Assembly (NCBI RefSeq): GCF_003003055.1
Contig: NZ_PVTV01000012.1
Span: 248,001 to 312,000, forward strand
Length of the DNA stretch: 64,000 bases
Direction: 5' to 3'
Source of the DNA: Jezberella montanilacus
GTDB lineage: Bacteria > Pseudomonadota > Gammaproteobacteria > Burkholderiales > Burkholderiaceae_B
The notes under the pieces are model-generated. The model did not search any database. It was not told the origin of the DNA and worked only from the letters and a program-made list of their open reading frames with translations. The translations under genes and the position numbers were made by a program. Below are positions 45,475-57,858 of the stretch, piece by piece; the first letter of the stretch is position 1, and each line of letters begins with the position of its first letter.

Positions 45475-46605
45475 TCAAGATTTGCGCCATACCTTGCGAT
45501 TGACGAAGTCTGTGTAGCTTTGAATAATACGCAAAACCTTGTCAGACACATTGTCAGGGGCATAGTCTGCCACTAAGTGCAATCCCCGCGTTTGGCCGCG
45601 CGGTTGCTCGGCAAGGATAGCCAAGCCTTGTTCAACACGGTCAATATCCATACCCACCATCATCACTGCAGCTTGCTCGAACCCTTCTGGCCGCTCGTGG
45701 GCCTCGCGCAAATTCAAGGCGGGAAAATTCAAGATTGATGATTCTTCAGTAATCGTACCGCTGTCAGACAGCACTGCACGTGCGTCAAGTTGAAGCTTGA
45801 CGTAGTCCGTAAACCCAAAGGGTTTCTCAAATCTGATCAAGGGGTCAGCGACCAAACCGGCGTCGGTGATCCGCTTTCTTGTCCTGGGGTGTGTTGAGAC
45901 GAGAACTGGCTCTCGATAGGTTTGCGCTAAGTGGTTCAACAACTGAAACAGTTTCTTTAATTGGCTGGGCGAATCGACATTCTCTTCCCGGTGCGCACTC
46001 ACCACAAAATACTGCTTTGGTTTAAGGTTAAGTGTGGATAAGACCTCAGATTTATCTATCCCTTCACGATAGTAATCAATCACTTCGCGCAACGGACTAC
46101 CCGTCTTGATAATCTGATCTGGCGGTAAGCCTTCGCGTAATAGATATTCTCGAGCAATCTCGCTGTAAGTTAAATTGATATCAGCTGTGTGATCGACGAT
46201 ACGTCGGTTGATCTCTTCAGGCACTCGAAAATCGAAGCACCGATTACCAGCCTCCATATGAAAAATGGGTACTTTACGGCGTTTGGCTGAAATGGCGGAT
46301 AGTGCACTATTCGTATCCCCAAGTAACAGCAGTGCCTCAGGCTGGTACTTTTGAATCATTTCATCGGCAGCGATGATGATTCGACCGATCGTTTCTGCGG
46401 GTGTTTCGCCAGCGGCTTCCATAAAGGCATCGGGCGCACGAATCCCTAAGTCCTTAAAAAAAATCCCGTTTAATTCATAGTCATAATTTTGACCGGTATG
46501 AACCAAAATATGATCGCAAAACTGGTCGAGTTTATGGATCGTGCGGGATAAGCGGATGATTTCTGGCCGAGTCCCGACAATGGTCATGACTTTCAGTTTA
46601 CGCAT
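45475..46605 (-). CDS. fnlC: UDP-HexNAc 2-epimerase (WbvD/FnlC/WbjD-like)
   Basis: 376 residues, non-hydrolysing UDP-HexNAc 2-epimerase fold: [45 protein letters not shown] and HREENVDSP are typical, the [11 protein letters not shown] form being that of the FnlC/WbvD branch. It inverts C2 of the UDP-6-deoxy-L-talose or -L-rhamnose HexNAc made by the two preceding enzymes. ATG 46605 overlaps the fnlA-like stop by eight bases; GTG 46617 is an alternative. Whether the product is L-FucNAc or L-QuiNAc depends on the reductase upstream. Confidence 0.88.
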
Positions 46606-47608
46606 TGACTGCCCCACGAATCAGATCGAGGCTCATGAGTACTTCTTTTACCTGTTCAACATCCAGACGACGGGTATTGTGGGATGTATAGTCATCGTAA
46701 TTAGAAATTTGTGTCTCGCCGGTGACGAAGTATTTATCGTAGTTTAAGTCGCGGGCATCCGCGGGGATGCGGTAATAGTTACCCAGATCTTCCGCTCGAG
46801 CCATCTCTTCACGCGAGACGAGAGATTCATAAAGCTTCTCGCCATGGCGGGTGCCGATCACTTGTATTTCGCTCTTAGTTGCAAAGAGAGAAGTCATCGC
46901 TTGGGCAAGATCCCCTACCGTCGAAGCTGGTGCCTTTTGTACAAAAATATCGCCTGGCTTGGCATGTTCAAAGGCATATAAAACCAGATCCACTGATTCT
47001 TCAAGCGACATCAAGAACCGTGTCATGTGAGGATCGGTCACTGTGATTGGCTTGCCCTGCTGTAATTGCTCAAGAAATAATGGGATTACCGAGCCACGTG
47101 ACGCCATGACGTTGCCATAACGCGTTGCCGAGAGCACCGTTTTGTTGGGATCACAGAGCCGGGACTTGGCGACCATGAGTTTTTCCATCAAGGCTTTAGA
47201 GATGCCCATTGCATTGATCGGATAGACCGCTTTATCTGTACTAAGCAGGACGCAGCGACTGACGCCTTGCGCAATCGCCGCGCGCATGACGTTTTCGGCC
47301 CCGTGCACGTTGGTTCGAACGGCCTCCATGGGGTAAAACTCGCAGGAGGGGACCTGTTTTAGTGCAGCCGCATGAAAAACAAAATCGACGCCATGCAAGG
47401 CATCGTGCACGCTGTCATATTCACGGACGTCACCGATGTAGAACTTAAGTTTGTCGCTTTTGTGCTTGAGACGCATATCCTCTTGCTTTTTCTCATCACG
47501 GCTAAACACCCTGATCTCTGCGAGCTCAGAGTCAAGCAGTCTGGTCAGCACGGTGTTGCCAAATGAGCCAGTACCACCGGTAATTAAGAGGACTTTATTT
47601 TTAAACAT
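46598..47608 (-). CDS. fnlA: UDP-GlcNAc C5-inverting 4,6-dehydratase/epimerase (FnlA/WbjB/WbvB-like)
   Basis: 336 residues, soluble SDR related to WbpM's catalytic domain but without membrane helices. [29 protein letters not shown] with Met in the catalytic position, and [16 protein letters not shown] mark the FnlA/CapE group. It converts UDP-GlcNAc to UDP-2-acetamido-4-keto-6-deoxy-L-hexoses. ATG 47608 begins the canonical N-terminus; a TTG at 47626 is in frame but lies inside the preceding gene. First dehydratase of a three-enzyme pathway in order FnlB-like, FnlA, FnlC on the minus strand. Confidence 0.9.
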
Positions 47609-47613
47609 ATGGT

Positions 47614-48504
47614 TTATTGCCTGCAAGAAGACTGACTAAACTTATGCATCTGCCCAATTAGTTCTGTCCAAGGCACAGTTTGATATCCAGTAGCAAGTTT
47701 AAAGCGAGTCGAATCTAAACATCGATCAATCACGAGATTATCATCTGCCACAACATTGATTTGCTTGCAGTAAGCATTGGCAACAAGTTTGAGCAGTTCA
47801 TATTTGTTAATCGGCGAGGCTGATACATGGTATGTACCGCGGAGTTCAGGATGCGGAATGACAAAATCCCTAATCACCCGAGCCAATTCAACAGTTGGCA
47901 GCCCCGAGAAAATCGCCTTTCGGAAACCCTTCACCTGACCTGTTTGAGATAAAAACCAATCAACCAGGCCATGATTACTGTTTATTTCGTGGCCTATGAT
48001 TGAGGTTCTTAGGGTGATAGCATTATCGTAATCAACCTCACCCAAGAGCTTGCTGCGCCCGTACAAATCTTGTGCATCAGGCATATCTTGCTCTGTGTAG
48101 TTGCCTTTTTTGCCACTAAAGACGCAGTCAGTGCTAACGTGAATCAGTCGGGCATTAACTTGTTTACAGTGCCTAGCAAGTTGGTGTGGCAGTAACGCGT
48201 TGATCTTGATTGCCGCCACTGCGTCATTGGCCTCTGCAAGCTGTTTGACCAGCCCCACACAATTAACAACAATATTGGGTCGTAGCTGAGTCAGCAACTG
48301 AGCCAAGCTTGATTCGTTTTCAACGTCAACATCTTGCACGATATTGTGCCGCAAAGAAACAGGCAAAGCTTGAACGAAGTTAGGTGATCGACAGGTGCCG
48401 TGAGTGATAAAGCCATCGCTTTCACTAAAAAAGCGGTACAGCGCGTTGCCCAGCATGCCAGACGCGCCAAGAATCAAAATCTTAATTTGCGACTCTGTCT
48501 TCAA
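47614..48504 (-). CDS. RmlD-like SDR reductase (WbvR/FnlB-like)
   Basis: 296 residues, RmlD-type short SDR: KILILGASGMLGNALYRFF, NCVGLVKQLAEAND, LIHVSTDCVFSGKKGNYTE and catalytic YGRSKLLGE. It lacks the C-terminal cupin of CapF/WbjC, which are about 370 residues long. By analogy to WbvR of Vibrio cholerae O37 it should reduce the C4 ketone to UDP-L-RhaNAc, which the 2-epimerase would turn into UDP-L-QuiNAc. A true dTDP-4-dehydrorhamnose reductase (rfbD) is the other reading, and would partly complete the rfbA/rfbC pathway. TTG start at 48504 overlaps the GT4 stop by four bases. Confidence 0.8.
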   Translation of the reverse strand: MKTESQIKILILGASGMLGNALYRFFSESDGFITHGTCRSPNFVQALPVSLRHNIVQDVDVENESSLAQLLTQLRPNIVVNCVGLVKQLAEANDAVAAIKINALLPHQLARHCKQVNARLIHVSTDCVFSGKKGNYTEQDMPDAQDLYGRSKLLGEVDYDNAITLRTSIIGHEINSNHGLVDWFLSQTGQVKGFRKAIFSGLPTVELARVIRDFVIPHPELRGTYHVSASPINKYELLKLVANAYCKQINVVADDNLVIDRCLDSTRFKLATGYQTVPWTELIGQMHKFSQSSCRQ

Positions 48505-50894: not shown

Positions 50895-51872
50895 ATGTCG
50901 CAGATGTCGATTTTGATTACAGGGGTTGCTGGTTTTATTGGCTGTAATTTGGCAAAGCGCTTCACAGACGAAGGACACCAGGTATTGGGTGTGGACAACC
51001 TTAGCCGCGGTACGCTCAACAATCTTGCCTATTTGCAAAACAACCCAAATTTTACCTTCGTCAAAGCCGATTGTGCCGAACGGGTTGGTTTCCTTGAGGC
51101 CATCGAAAATTTTCACAAACAATCGCCCATTATTGAAGTTTGGCATCTGGCAGCTAATTCAGATATCCCGGCTGGGGTGACCGACGCTCAGGTTGACCTC
51201 AAAGATACTTTCATGACAACCTTTAACGTGCTCGAGGTGATGAAGCAACTCGCTATCCCAGTGCTTGCTTTTGCGTCAAGTTCGGCGGTTTACGGGGATC
51301 ACGGAGAACAAAGCATTTCAGAGGATTCTGGGCCACTTTTGCCGCTATCCAACTATGGGGCGATGAAATTGGCCTCTGAGGCAGCAATCAGTGCTGCGGC
51401 AGAGAGCTTTCTGGCTCGGGCGTTTGTTTACCGGTTTCCCAACGTCATTGGCGTGCCTGCGACACACGGGGTCTTACTGGATTTTGTGAACAAGCTCAAA
51501 ACCAGCCCGGATGAACTGAAGGTGCTTGGTGATGGGACTCAGCAAAAGACTTATCTTCATGTTGATGATCTGATCGACGGTATGCTGCAAGTTCGCCATG
51601 GTGCGACCGAAAAGCTTGCTGTCTACAATTTAGGTGCTGACGATACAGGGATGTCGGTGCGTCACATTGCAGAGGCGGTCGTCGCAGCCGCTTCACCGAA
51701 CGCGCAAATAGTTTATGGCATTGAGAATCGTGGTTGGGTTGGTGATGTGCCCAAGTTTCAATATCGTCTTGATAAGCTAAAGAAACTGGGATGGACACCT
51801 AAACTTGACTCTCGACAGGCCATCGTCCGTGCCATCGCAGAAATCATTCAACAAGAGATCACCCGCGCATGA
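50895..51872 (+). CDS. NAD-dependent epimerase/dehydratase (SDR) of the heptose operon
   Basis: 325-residue extended SDR. GVAGFIGCNLAKRF gives the NAD motif, WHLAANSDIPAG the substrate loop, SSSAVYGDHGEQ and catalytic YGAMK the active site. It resembles UDP-glucose 4-epimerase-like enzymes without an exact match. It heads an operon of GDP-heptose genes and overlaps the nucleotidyltransferase fusion by four bases (ATGA), so it may modify the heptose nucleotide or act on a partner sugar. Substrate is not assigned. Confidence 0.83.
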   Translation: MSQMSILITGVAGFIGCNLAKRFTDEGHQVLGVDNLSRGTLNNLAYLQNNPNFTFVKADCAERVGFLEAIENFHKQSPIIEVWHLAANSDIPAGVTDAQVDLKDTFMTTFNVLEVMKQLAIPVLAFASSSAVYGDHGEQSISEDSGPLLPLSNYGAMKLASEAAISAAAESFLARAFVYRFPNVIGVPATHGVLLDFVNKLKTSPDELKVLGDGTQQKTYLHVDDLIDGMLQVRHGATEKLAVYNLGADDTGMSVRHIAEAVVAAASPNAQIVYGIENRGWVGDVPKFQYRLDKLKKLGWTPKLDSRQAIVRAIAEIIQQEITRA

Positions 51873-53773
51873 GGCAGGTTGTCATTCTGGCAGGTGGTAA
51901 AGGCACTCGACTTAAAGACAGACTGGGCGATTTGCCCAAGCCTCTGATCGATGTGTGCGGCACCCCACTACTTGAGCATCAAATCTTGCTAGCCAAGCGT
52001 TACGGCTTTAATAGGGTGCTTGTGTTGGTGAATCACAAAGCCCAGCAAATTGTCGATTTTTGTTTGAGCAAAGACAATTGGGGTATCGAGGTCCAGTGCA
52101 TTGATGATCAAGTGCCACTGGGTACGGCAGGGGCAGTGCTTAATGTGTTTGGGCAACTCGAAGACCAGTTTCTTGTCATGTACGGCGACACCATGATGGA
52201 TGTCGATTTGAGTCGCTTTTGCCGGGCTCATGCGAGCAGTCAAACCACAGGCGCCACGCTATTTTTGCACCCCAACGATCATCCCCAGGATTCTGATCTC
52301 GTTGAGGTGAATGGGTCGAATGTGATTACCCAATTTCACCCCTATCCCCATCAAGCTGACACGTATTACCCTAACCTAGTCAATGCAGCCCTCTATTGCA
52401 TGAGCAAGGCCGCATTGCTCCCCTATCGGCATCGGGGACAGGTTGAGCTGGATTTTGGTAAGCATTTGTTCCCTCAAATGATCAGGGACGGCATTATTTT
52501 GCGTGGTTACAACAGTCCAGAGTACATCAAGGATTGCGGTACGCCAGATCGAATCGACAAGGTCAGAATTGACTTCAGCAAGGGAAAGATTACGAACGCC
52601 TCTTTAGCTAATAAGCAAGCGGCAATATTTCTGGATAGAGATGGCACGATTATCGAGCAAGTCGATCAGTTGAATTCACTTGATCAAGTAAGTTTGCTTG
52701 ATGGTGCTGCGACAGCAATTCGTCGCTTTAACCGAGAAGGTTATAAGACCTGCGTCGTGACCAATCAGCCCGTGATCGCCAGAGGTGAGTGCAGTGTCGA
52801 ACAGCTGACGCAAATCCATTACAAAATGGAAACCTTGCTTGGTCGTGAAGCGGCCTACCTTGATCGCATCTATTATTGCCCTCACCATCCGGATAAAGGT
52901 TTTGCTGGTGAGCGAGCCGATTTGAAACTTGTCTGTCAGTGCAGAAAGCCCGCAACCGGGATGATAACGAGGGCTGTTGTCGATCTAAACGTCGATCTTG
53001 AAAAGTCTTGGATGATCGGTGACACCTCTACAGACATTGAGTTGGCCAAGCGATCCGGCTTGAAGTCCATTCTGGTAGAAACGGGGTATGCCGGTCGAGA
53101 CGGAAAGCACCCAGCCAACGCAGATTTTGTTGTTCTAAGCCTAGCAGAGGCAGCAACCTTAGTGCTCGATATTTATCCCTCAGTAGTGGACAAATATCTT
53201 GATGAATTGGCCAGTCTTCAACCCGGCGCTTTGGTCATGATTGGCGGCCAATCGCGTAGCGGCAAAAGTACTTTTGCCAATATATTGAAGCTGGCGTTGC
53301 TAGGGCTAGGACGTCAAAGCCACGTGATCTCGACAGATCGCTGGATTCTGTCTGAAGCGGATCGCGGCGACGGCGTGTTGGCCAGGCACGCCATGACTGA
53401 GCTTAATGAGGCATTGACGTCACTTCAGTCGATGACGACTCAGCTTAAGCAGATATCGCTGCCACGCTATTTGAAACACCAGCGACTACATCAAAAAAAT
53501 GCAGAACAATTTGAAATACAACCAGAAGATATTGTGATCGTTGAGGGCGTTGTCGCCCTTGCGACAGACGCTGCAAAGGATGCAAACAAGCGCTTTTATG
53601 TTGACACGGATGAGGCCGAGCGCAGAGCAAGAGTAATCAATGAGTACTGCCTGAGAGGCTATACCGCTGAGGAAGCAGAGACCGTTTATCTTGATCGTCT
53701 TCAGGACGAAGTGCCTGTCATTGCTGCGCTTGAGCACGACGCCATCAAGGTTAAACTACCCTTAACAGCATGA
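51869..53773 (+). CDS. Three-domain fusion: nucleotidyltransferase - HAD phosphatase (GmhB) - P-loop kinase-like
   Basis: 634 residues. Residues 1-230: nucleotidyltransferase (VVILAGGKGTRLKDRLGDLP, MYGDTMMDVD), HddC-like. Residues about 250-420: GmhB-type histidinol-phosphatase family HAD (FLDRDGT with D256/D258, zinc ligands C337, H339, C356, C358, and MIGDTSTDIELAKRSG). Residues about 455-630: P-loop domain with Walker A GGQSRSGKST (459-468) and a VIVEGVVAL motif, like uridine kinases. The first two activities are the GmhB and HddC steps of GDP-D-glycero-D-manno-heptose synthesis; HddA and GmhA follow at once. The third domain has no place in the known pathway. It starts on the stop of the SDR gene. 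Confidence 0.88.
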   Translation: MRQVVILAGGKGTRLKDRLGDLPKPLIDVCGTPLLEHQILLAKRYGFNRVLVLVNHKAQQIVDFCLSKDNWGIEVQCIDDQVPLGTAGAVLNVFGQLEDQFLVMYGDTMMDVDLSRFCRAHASSQTTGATLFLHPNDHPQDSDLVEVNGSNVITQFHPYPHQADTYYPNLVNAALYCMSKAALLPYRHRGQVELDFGKHLFPQMIRDGIILRGYNSPEYIKDCGTPDRIDKVRIDFSKGKITNASLANKQAAIFLDRDGTIIEQVDQLNSLDQVSLLDGAATAIRRFNREGYKTCVVTNQPVIARGECSVEQLTQIHYKMETLLGREAAYLDRIYYCPHHPDKGFAGERADLKLVCQCRKPATGMITRAVVDLNVDLEKSWMIGDTSTDIELAKRSGLKSILVETGYAGRDGKHPANADFVVLSLAEAATLVLDIYPSVVDKYLDELASLQPGALVMIGGQSRSGKSTFANILKLALLGLGRQSHVISTDRWILSEADRGDGVLARHAMTELNEALTSLQSMTTQLKQISLPRYLKHQRLHQKNAEQFEIQPEDIVIVEGVVALATDAAKDANKRFYVDTDEAERRARVINEYCLRGYTAEEAETVYLDRLQDEVPVIAALEHDAIKVKLPLTA

Positions 53774-53791: not shown

Positions 53792-54787
53792 ATGATTATT
53801 AGTCGAACGCCGCTGAGAATGAGTTTAGTGGGTGGTGGCAGTGACCTTCCTGCTTTCTATAAGAGCGAAGAGGTTGGTGCAGTGATCAGCTCTGCTATCG
53901 ACAAATATATTTACGTGAACGTCAATAAAAAGTTCGATCAAGGCATTAGGGTCGGGTATTCGATCAATGAAGAAGTCACTGCCGTTGATCAGATCAAGCA
54001 TCCCCTCGTTAGGGAAAGCATGAGATACCTTGGTCTTAATGGTGGCGTAGAAATTACCACCATCGCTGACATCCCGTCTAAAGGCACAGGGCTAGGGTCG
54101 TCGAGTTCGTTTACTGTCGGTTTGTTGCATGCGCTTAATGCCTATATGGGCAAGTACAGTTCAGCCGAAGTCTTGGGCAAAGATGCCTGCAAAGTTGAAA
54201 TTGAGCTTTGCAAAGAGCCGATCGGCAAACAAGATCAATACGCAGCGGCATACGGGGGGTTTAATCTGATTGAGTTCAGGCCTGACGAATCGGTTGTCGT
54301 CTCACCGCTTATTTGCAAAGCAGCCACGATTAAGTCATTGCAATCAAGTCTGCTGATGTTTTACACCGGCACCACAAGAAATGCCTCAAGCATTTTGCAA
54401 GAACAGTCAGATTCTCTGGCGAACAACCCGGTCAAGCTTCAAGCACTGCGACAAATGGTTAAGCTTGCTTACAGTTTGAGAGACGAGCTACAGGCTAATA
54501 ATCTTGAAGCAATGGGCGAAATCTTGCACGAAAACTGGCTACTCAAAAAGAGCCTGGTCGCAAGCATCAGCAATCAAGAAATCGACCGTTGGTATGAATT
54601 GGCGATGAATGCCGGTGCACAAGGCGGGAAAATCCTCGGCGCTGGTGCTGGTGGCTTTCTGTTGATGACTGCGCCGCCCGAGAAGCATACTGCCATTAAA
54701 GCAGCGTTATCCATGCTCAAACACGTCCCCGTCGAGCTTGAACCGCTCGGCAGCCGTATTGTCTTCGACACCGCTAGATCAGAATAG
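53792..54787 (+). CDS. hddA: D-glycero-alpha-D-manno-heptose-7-phosphate kinase (GHMP kinase)
   Basis: 331 residues. The GHMP motif SKGTGLGSSSSFTVGLLHAL is intact, the N-terminus has ISRTPLRMSLVGGGSDLPAF as in HddA, and GAGAGGFLL near the C-terminus is the third GHMP motif. It phosphorylates C1 of heptose-7-phosphate before the GmhB and nucleotidyltransferase steps on the fusion upstream. 18 bases separate it from that gene. Assignment rests on the motif set plus heptose operon context. Confidence 0.93.
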   Translation: MIISRTPLRMSLVGGGSDLPAFYKSEEVGAVISSAIDKYIYVNVNKKFDQGIRVGYSINEEVTAVDQIKHPLVRESMRYLGLNGGVEITTIADIPSKGTGLGSSSSFTVGLLHALNAYMGKYSSAEVLGKDACKVEIELCKEPIGKQDQYAAAYGGFNLIEFRPDESVVVSPLICKAATIKSLQSSLLMFYTGTTRNASSILQEQSDSLANNPVKLQALRQMVKLAYSLRDELQANNLEAMGEILHENWLLKKSLVASISNQEIDRWYELAMNAGAQGGKILGAGAGGFLLMTAPPEKHTAIKAALSMLKHVPVELEPLGSRIVFDTARSE

Positions 54788-54801: not shown

Positions 54802-55368
54802 ATGTCATTCAGCCAAGGTATTGCCGATTTGTATTTGAACAAGTTAACACGTTTGGTTTCAGCGCTTGATCGTGAGCAGATCGATCATGGGGTTCAAGTC
54901 GTTGCTAATGCCTGGCTTGCCGGAAAGCAGATCATTACGCTGGGTAACGGTGGCAGCGCTTTGACAGCGTTGCACTTTATCAATGATTGGAATAAAACGA
55001 TTTCTATGCAGACGCAACGCAGTTTTAGGGGACGGTCTCTCGTTGATAACGTGGGGCTGCTGATGAGCTATGCCAATGATATTTCTTTTGAGGATGTGTT
55101 TGTTGAGCAACTGAAACATGTTTTGCTACCTGGCGATCTGGTGCTGGCGATCTCTGGCAGTGGTAATTCTGAGAATGTCATCCGCGCGGTTGATTATGCA
55201 AATCAAAATGGTGCAGTGACACTCGGCTTGTGCGGATATCGAGGTGGCAAGTTAAAAGAGATTGCACAACATGTGGTTTGGGCAGATATCGACGATATGC
55301 AGATATCCGAGGACATACATTTCATGTTTGGTCATATGGTGATGCAACGTTTGGCTGGGTATTACTAG
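54802..55368 (+). CDS. gmhA: Sedoheptulose-7-phosphate isomerase (SIS domain)
   Basis: 188 residues, the normal GmhA length. TLGNGGSALTALHFINDWNK and SGSGNSENVIRAVDYAN are SIS-fold sugar-phosphate sites, and EDIHFMFGHMVMQRL is the GmhA C-terminal motif. It gives D-glycero-D-manno-heptose-7-phosphate, the substrate of HddA. It lies 14 bases after hddA. Its active-site region is slightly divergent (ALTALHF for the common AADAQHF), but the family is clear. Confidence 0.92.
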   Translation: MSFSQGIADLYLNKLTRLVSALDREQIDHGVQVVANAWLAGKQIITLGNGGSALTALHFINDWNKTISMQTQRSFRGRSLVDNVGLLMSYANDISFEDVFVEQLKHVLLPGDLVLAISGSGNSENVIRAVDYANQNGAVTLGLCGYRGGKLKEIAQHVVWADIDDMQISEDIHFMFGHMVMQRLAGYY

Positions 55369-56973: not shown

Positions 56974-57858
56974 TTATATTTTTATCCAGCTATCAGGAAG
57001 CAAGCCGTCAAAGCCCCAAGCGGTCTGACTACTTTGTCTGGTGAATCCCGGCGCTATGACTATTTTATTTTTGTGCTGCGACAACCACGCACCCCACCAA
57101 CTAAAGGTACTGTTAGCGATTATGAAGTGCTTACATTGCGTCATCAGCCACAAATCAGCGTAGGCGTTTTCGGTCCCTTGATTGTGCGAAACGAGAGTGA
57201 CATTGATATCCGGTACTTGAATTAACGATCGCGCAGCAATTACGTCATCTGAAAACAAGAAGTAGTGGGCGTCTGGGGCGTATTGCTGCATAGCCGCTAA
57301 CGCATTCGCATAATAATCTGCGGTAGCGTTATTGTCGCCAACTGCATCAGGCTTATCGAAGAAGCGAACATGCACAGCAACCGCGGTGCAGCTTTGAATG
57401 AATTGCGAAACTTTTACATTCAGCAAATCCGCCGGCGGTTTAATTTGTAAATCCTCTCGAATTACCTCTTCGATGTCCTTAAAGTATTGCTCACTTTGCC
57501 AATAGCCTTCAATGTACAGGTAGTTGCGAGGTTTGATTTTCAATAGCCGCGGATCAAAAGCGTTACCTACTTGTTGAATATAGTTACGCTTTTCGAAGGG
57601 CACTCGGTTGTTAATCCAACGTTTTACATAGCGTCGGATTCGGGCGAAAGGCTCAAGACGATCGGATGATGACGCCAAACTGCAGTTGATATTGAAGTGT
57701 TCGAGTTGGTATTTTTGTTGATATGTAGTGTCAAATTGAAAACCACTTATGCTATCGATATGCAATTTGCCATCATTTTTTAGCGCCACTCGCTTGGCCG
57801 CAGCATAGGCAAAGAGTTGGTTGCCTAGTCCACCACGAATACGCAGTATTACCTTCAT
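56974..57858 (-). CDS. Alpha-1,2-fucosyltransferase (GT11)
   Basis: 294 residues. RIRGGLGNQLFAYAAAKRVA is the GT11 start, the donor motif is VAVHVRFFDKPD, and NSTFSWWGAWLSQHKN is the C-terminal signature. The usual H-x-R-R-G-D motif is changed here to HVRFFDK, keeping one arginine. GT11 enzymes transfer L-fucose from GDP-fucose to a galactose-type acceptor; GDP-fucose synthase is encoded at 22372-23355. This gene shares four bases with the methyltransferase that precedes it on the minus strand. Confidence 0.9.
   Translation of the reverse strand: MKVILRIRGGLGNQLFAYAAAKRVALKNDGKLHIDSISGFQFDTTYQQKYQLEHFNINCSLASSSDRLEPFARIRRYVKRWINNRVPFEKRNYIQQVGNAFDPRLLKIKPRNYLYIEGYWQSEQYFKDIEEVIREDLQIKPPADLLNVKVSQFIQSCTAVAVHVRFFDKPDAVGDNNATADYYANALAAMQQYAPDAHYFLFSDDVIAARSLIQVPDINVTLVSHNQGTENAYADLWLMTQCKHFIIANSTFSWWGAWLSQHKNKIVIAPGFTRQSSQTAWGFDGLLPDSWIKI

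Follow-up and report, generated by a model that had tools for sequence, protein, structure and literature searches.

A third, kinase-fold domain in a heptose pathway protein suggests an extra, optional step in the surface heptose synthesis of some bacteria

The route to GDP-D-glycero-D-manno-heptose in Campylobacter jejuni comprises GmhA, HddA, GmhB and HddC, as given in the accessible part of PMC10680097. Among kinases, uridine-cytidine kinase 2 (UCK2) uses Asp62 as its catalytic base, according to the available portion of PMC9163393, and the available text of PMC10433430 describes FrcK of Sinorhizobium, encoded in an operon for sugar transport, as a putative kinase with no substrate known so far. 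We analysed a stretch of 64,000 nucleotides of Jezberella montanilacus (contig NZ_PVTV01000012.1, positions 248,001 to 312,000 of the forward strand; hereafter, the window), in which a heptose operon encodes a fusion protein with an HddC-like domain, a GmhB-like domain and a third domain of the PRK/uridine kinase/PanK fold. We propose that this third domain is an active but optional kinase, whose substrate is a heptose that the same operon makes and that already carries a phosphate or a nucleotide; this reading has an even chance of being right. It builds on the predicted fold, on conservation of the residues for ATP binding and catalysis, on purifying selection, on the separate grouping of the domain and on its optional presence beside an unchanged operon. 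An original prediction, made from the sequence of the window, had given the coordinates of the gene and the motif GGQSRSGKST at residues 459-468; both are exact, and the 634-amino-acid open reading frame is intact. The gene and its parts are as follows:

51869..53773, + strand: three-domain fusion gene, 634 amino acids, open frame intact, with full-length relatives elsewhere
51869..52558, + strand: domain 1, HddC-like nucleotidyltransferase (residues 1-230; PF00483; nearest structure 5xhw)
52616..53170, + strand: domain 2, GmhB-like HAD-IIIA phosphatase (residues 250-434; NF006506; nearest structure 2gmw)
53225..53743, + strand: domain 3, kinase of the PRK/uridine kinase/PanK fold (residues 453-625)
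53243..53272, + strand: Walker A loop (residues 459-468; K466 in 53 of 54 proteins)
53336..53344, + strand: D-x-W motif (residues 490-492; D and W each in 53 of 54; D490 corresponds to UCK2 Asp62)
53543..53548, + strand: E559-G560, aligned with the Mg ligand Glu135 of UCK2 (E in 47 and D in 7 of 54; G in 54 of 54)
53630..53659, + strand: lid segment (residues 588-597; R588 in 51 of 54, Y593 in 51 of 54)

Residues 457-614 match PF00485 (PRK/uridine kinase) at 19.0 bits when the whole protein is searched, below the cut-off of 22, and at 23.8 bits, above it, when the domain is searched alone; the same family is matched at 1e-3 by the domains of 38 out of 53 relatives. A profile of domain 3 retrieves UCK2 at 2.4e-16, and the predicted model, with a predicted local distance difference test (pLDDT) value of 95.5, adopts the PRK superfamily fold. 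These three results bear out the prediction of a third, separate kinase-fold domain. A chance P-loop is ruled out by the profile match, the predicted fold and the conservation. In the alignment, K466, D490 and E559 take the places of the Walker A lysine, the catalytic aspartate and the Mg-binding glutamate of uridine kinases. Conservation of the Walker lysine in orthologues was a point on which the prediction depended, and the only protein lacking it carries a decayed domain (locus L038). Domain 3 would then be a working ATP-dependent P-loop kinase, forming a distinct group within its fold.

The two preceding domains had been described as HddC-like and GmhB-like with intact catalytic residues, and the key positions are indeed invariant or nearly so among 54 aligned proteins. 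In domain 1, Pfam NTP_transferase (PF00483) covers residues 4-227 (7.9e-23), the nearest solved structure is a nucleotidyltransferase of the 6-deoxy-manno-heptose pathway (5xhw, 1.6e-21), and G9, G10, R14, K24 and D107 are found in all 54 proteins; the score against the HddC family NF049965 is 66.6 bits, below the curated cut-off of 300. HAD-type Pfam matches of domain 2 fall inside residues 243-428, with a HAD-IIIA phosphatase closest to GmhB assigned to 250-431, and its nearest solved structure is Escherichia coli GmhB (2gmw, 3.6e-28), with scores below both GmhB cut-offs (NF006506, 148.2 versus 178 bits; TIGR00213, 108.2 versus 149.6 bits). The HAD catalytic residues D256, D258, K360 and D385 occur in 54 out of 54 proteins, and in the Cys/His metal loop C337 is invariant, while H339, C356 and C358 are kept in at least 90% of 51 proteins.

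The best single-sequence matches of domain 3 are uridine kinases, and the resemblance to them proposed earlier holds for the fold and the catalytic residues, but not for family cut-offs, tree position or substrate residues. The domain scores 36.6 bits against TIGR00235 (cut-off 220.3) and 40.5 bits against NF004018 (cut-off 180). In an unrooted kinase tree, computed without L038, the 54 fused kinases lie on one side of a branch with a Shimodaira-Hasegawa-like approximate likelihood ratio test (SH-aLRT) value of 99 and do not group with uridine kinases; on the other side are 25 standalone kinases of uridine kinase type, one phosphoribulokinase-like protein, two of PRK09270 type and three membrane-protein fusions. 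Six of the 25 standalone kinases were scanned against NCBIfam, where all six exceeded the NF004018 cut-off and four that of TIGR00235. Residues were compared between 53 fused domains (L038 and L096 left out) and these 25 kinases, a set that does not include L109, L111 and L122, which are not uridine kinases. The ATP and catalytic residues are common to both sets. The pyrimidine-reading histidine (position of UCK2 His117) is present in 0/53 fused and 24/25 standalone proteins, a six-column loop after residue 507, at the ribose-binding site, in 0/53 and 25/25, and an arginine at position 598 in 1/53 and 25/25.

A nucleoside kinase acting on uridine, cytidine or guanosine, which would supply nucleotides to the nucleotidyltransferase, is thus very improbable, and the nucleoside salvage offered as an option by the original prediction is unlikely, given the family cut-offs, the tree grouping and the substrate residues. 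Besides the single-sequence matches, this explanation could draw on the finding that Udk exceeds its family cut-off in none of 10 kinase-bearing genomes, but the control genomes exceed it in only 7 out of 14 cases. One of the ten (G360) has a 213-amino-acid Udk match at 164.7 bits and so probably has its own Udk. Moreover, 18 out of 20 genomes of the same order show no Udk match at 1e-12, so that a missing Udk is common here even without the fusion.

A set of residues specific to the fused domains, and absent from all 25 standalone kinases, comprises W492 (52 of 53), R499 (52), R506 (46), K/R536 (40), Y593 (51), R610 (52) and E614 (53). Judged from alignment positions, this arginine-rich set suggests that the substrate is anionic; this substrate would come from the same operon, as an intermediate or as a product, and be either a heptose phosphate or GDP-heptose itself. 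Of the roles first listed for the domain, phosphorylation of another intermediate fits best. Salvage or priming is unlikely: here, free heptose or heptulose would be phosphorylated at C7 and then converted to GDP-heptose by HddA, the HAD domain and the nucleotidyltransferase, the 7-phosphate being a handle that domain 3 adds and domain 2 takes off. The fused-specific arginines speak for an anionic substrate, and no cluster of non-core neighbours occurs in more than 22 out of 83 loci, so there is no transporter gene as a steady partner. FrcK offers little help to this explanation, since in the available text its role is unsettled and the fructokinase is Frk (PMC10433430).

Relatives were collected by scanning a single genome of each species, which gave 209; counts use the best 80 by score, a choice that favours longer, kinase-bearing proteins. 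Of the 80, 51 extend into the kinase, L038 and its decayed domain included. The other 29 stop short of it: 27 have a stop codon of their own, most at 431-453 amino acids, and two end at contig ends. L062 was considered as kinase-bearing and rejected: its match reaches residue 481, but the frame stops at 431, and beyond it there is no Walker motif and the HddA-like gene starts. At least 80% of the protein is covered by 54 plasmid records, from which one of Methylovirgula and one of Rhizobium were added to the locus set. According to record titles and NCBI ranks, and with many metagenome bins among them, the kinase-bearing hosts belong to Pseudomonadota, Bacteroidota, Acidobacteriota, Myxococcota, Spirochaetota, Thermodesulfobacteriota and Chlorobiota. 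In less biased samples the full-length protein is rare. The two-domain part was found at 1e-45 in 11 out of 398 Pseudomonadota genomes, with the kinase in 3 of the 11, including that of the window, which is a fairer count than that of the best 80; at 1e-20, one of 296 Bacteroidota genomes matched, the seed itself. Four of 32 genomes of the genus of the window have the full-length protein. The annotated plasmid records examined name it only 'HAD-IIIA family hydrolase', so the kinase is invisible in the protein name.

In a tree of domains 1 and 2, from which L038, L042, L083 and the long branches L002 and L082 were left out, kinase-bearing proteins do not form one clade: presence of the kinase changes 8 times over 78 rows, and the approximately unbiased (AU) test gives p 1.6e-44. 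The kinase domains themselves group together, unlike their domain 1-2 partners. The simplest history, compared with one involving domain transfer, would be a single fusion of domain 3 to the nucleotidyltransferase-phosphatase pair, followed by losses in several lineages. L038 (1389-3047) has a truncated domain that lacks both the Walker lysine and the catalytic aspartate, its sister proteins L039 and L040 have no such domain, and the operon is otherwise whole; we read this as kinase loss in progress. No separate kinase gene was detected at E 1e-3 in the flanks, some of them short, of the 29 kinase-less loci. Since the operon keeps the same core of epimerase, fusion and HddA whether or not the kinase is there, and loss of the kinase leaves the operon whole, the kinase appears to add something optional and seems dispensable for the GDP-heptose route. 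The phosphate that it adds would be superfluous to the core route and would open a side branch, leading for example to a heptose donor that carries a phosphate or to a phosphorylated compound that feeds the pathway.

Several points weigh against the proposed kinase role. The fused-specific arginines could serve the lid or ATP instead of the substrate, and R610 and E614 sit in the helix after the lid, without a documented role. Purifying selection acts on domain 3, but its mean column identity is 35%, versus 52% for the whole protein, and its ratio of nonsynonymous to synonymous substitution rates (dN/dS) is above that of the other domains in all nine pairs with both ratios defined, pairs that overlap and several of which have dS >1. 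Such faster evolution is equally expected of a weakly constrained or regulatory domain. A regulatory or scaffolding domain would bind ATP or a pathway metabolite and tune the other domains or hold a complex, with little or no turnover. In its favour, domain 3 is under weaker selection than its catalytic partners and is lost while the operon stays, and FrcK, an annotated kinase matched to pantothenate kinase, affects fructose transport without a known substrate, as far as the available part of PMC10433430 goes. FrcK is therefore a caution in reading domain 3. However, the Walker lysine, the catalytic base, the Mg ligand and the lid arginine are kept in practically all proteins, which exceeds the needs of pure binding, and the sole broken Walker motif (L038) goes together with the loss of the catalytic aspartate and truncation of the domain, in a group whose sisters have lost it. 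We consider regulation quite unlikely, and retain an active, optional kinase as the preferred reading.

The fusion gene is surrounded by partner genes of the same operon, with a gap of 18 bases to the HddA-like gene and the GmhA-like gene next:

50895..51872, + strand: SDR NAD-dependent epimerase/dehydratase gene (PF01370, 2.4e-43), overlapping the fusion gene by 4 bases
53792..54787, + strand: HddA-like GHMP sugar kinase gene (NF049969, 177.9 bits, cut-off 600)
54802..55368, + strand: variant GmhA-like SIS isomerase gene (TIGR00441, 88.4 bits, cut-off 209.45; Asp62/Glu170)

Gene-presence counts leave out L038 (decayed domain) and L042 and L083 (ended by contig ends). HddA is the best family for the HddA-like protein, although it remains below the cut-off; its structure matches are a 'putative sugar kinase' (4usm, 2.2e-43) and a heptose kinase (3k85, 1e-38). 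This gene is present in 48 out of 49 kinase-bearing and 24 out of 24 kinase-less loci (a locus was scored as lacking it only where both flanks measured 3 kb or more), and in all six kinase-bearing genomes searched whole. In two Azospirillum loci (L024 and L026), it lies about 6.9 kb upstream, not adjoining the fusion, and the genome of L024 has two HddA-like genes. Because its two fusion partners catalyse the steps that follow in the route, domain 3 could be taken for the true C1 heptose kinase, with HddA doing something else; the near-constant company of HddA, with and without the domain, makes this extremely improbable. Replacement of HddA by domain 3 was rejected on the same ground.

An SDR epimerase-like gene is found in the flanks of 41 out of 47 kinase-bearing and 23 out of 26 kinase-less loci. 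Clustering of neighbouring open reading frames (60 largest clusters) revealed no partner gene tracking the kinase beyond the core genes. A glycosyltransferase cluster occurs in 20/54 kinase-bearing versus 2/29 kinase-less loci, counts in which single linkage lumps a common family and kinship is uncorrected. Also uncorrected for kinship, a GmhA-like gene near the fusion is commoner with the kinase (40/44 versus 13/21, p 0.013); four out of four kinase-bearing genomes without a nearby copy hold an Asp/Glu-type copy elsewhere.

This Asp/Glu type sets the isomerase of these operons apart. As far as the available part of PMC7705670 describes them, Glu66 and Gln173 are the acid/base pair of the Mycobacterium tuberculosis enzyme, which is assigned to the GDP-heptose route, and the corresponding GmhA residues are Glu68 and Gln175 in Burkholderia pseudomallei and Glu68 and His183 in E. 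coli and Pseudomonas aeruginosa. The closest solved structures of the GmhA-like protein are phosphoheptose isomerases. A GmhA-like match at 1e-8 was obtained in 54 out of 80 loci, and 46 isomerases forming one sequence cluster were compared, those outside it being excluded. In all 46, from loci with and without the kinase, the glutamate of GmhA is replaced by aspartate and the glutamine by glutamate, while the histidine named for E. coli and P. aeruginosa GmhA (His178) is kept in 43. Among 18 genomes searched, 16 had a match, giving 23 further SIS proteins: 16 of Asp/Glu type, 5 of standard Glu/Gln type and 2 aligning with neither; both types occur together in four genomes. By these residues, the SIS isomerase is not a standard GmhA. 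The claim that all four GDP-heptose genes are present therefore stands at the level of like proteins: all four score below the curated equivalog cut-offs, and the GmhA-like protein lacks the catalytic Glu/Gln pair. This isomerase calls into question the premise that the operon encodes just the known GDP-heptose route.

The window also contains glycosyltransferases, a sugar transferase, an FnlA-like dehydratase, an RmlD-like reductase and a UDP-GlcNAc 2-epimerase, and such neighbours indicate that the heptose operon is part of a surface-polysaccharide cluster. The last three, the epimerase being of WecB type and the FnlA-like protein scoring 542.9 bits (cut-off 730), are consecutive at 45475-48504, a row that resembles a UDP-FucNAc route. 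A glycosyltransferase family 11 gene lies near the heptose operon at 56974-57858, on the opposite strand. In three Rhizobium plasmids (L002, L136 and L137), all three annotated regions have a sugar ABC transporter upstream of the SIS-GT-SDR-fusion-GHMP kinase operon, and genes for an NAD(P)-dependent and an FAD-dependent oxidoreductase after it. Three other proteins of about 700 amino acids (L125, 5808-7889, - strand; L126, 5277-7364, + strand; L127, 6202-8313, - strand) end in a PRK-type kinase domain, scanned with Pfam for L125 and L126, and have an N-terminal part that apparently spans the membrane. Genes for a HAD hydrolase, a class II aldolase and a nucleotidyltransferase lie near L125, and for a nucleotidyltransferase near L127, another case in which a PRK-fold kinase accompanies sugar genes.

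PAPS synthetase joins a nucleotidyltransferase and a P-loop kinase in one polypeptide, and the nucleotide that the former makes is the substrate of the latter. By analogy, domain 3 might be a sugar-nucleotide kinase acting on the GDP-heptose of domain 1, or an epimerised form of it, and yielding a phosphorylated donor for surface polysaccharide; we regard this version as distinctly unlikely. If it is true, the operon, with its altered isomerase, would stand for a heptose pathway of its own, distinct from the known GDP-heptose route.

The open-access literature searched, with subscription papers outside the search, yielded no paper by title on the three-domain protein, and neither a described function for the third domain nor a characterised accessory domain of this kind was found there, in line with its having been called unexplained. 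The parts are of known kinds; as far as this analysis goes, neither their three-domain combination nor the kinase group has been described. A conserved extra kinase inside a pathway protein of several phyla means that the GDP-heptose picture may miss at least one step or product. With a small domain, a confident predicted fold and few known heptose compounds to assay, the question is directly testable.

Compared with Udk and UCK2, domain 3 has neither the pyrimidine-reading histidine nor the ribose-site loop, groups apart and falls far under the family cut-offs. It shares about 18% identity with type I pantothenate kinase and the 'fructose transport system kinase' (3c8u), and stays under the cut-offs for pantothenate kinase (TIGR00554, 28.4 versus 235 bits), PRK09270-type proteins (NF006743, 24.3 versus 227 bits) and phosphoribulokinase (NF005655, 31.8 versus 236 bits). 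With PAPS synthetase the fusion shares the pairing of nucleotidyltransferase and P-loop kinase, but the families are unrelated and that enzyme is only a model for domain 3. The two-domain HddC-GmhB-like fusion has the same residues 1-434 and the same operon, without the kinase. As in the C. jejuni GDP-heptose route, four like enzymes are present, here encoded in one operon; the differences are that two of them are fused, a kinase domain is added, an SDR epimerase is usually alongside and the residue pair of the isomerase is altered.

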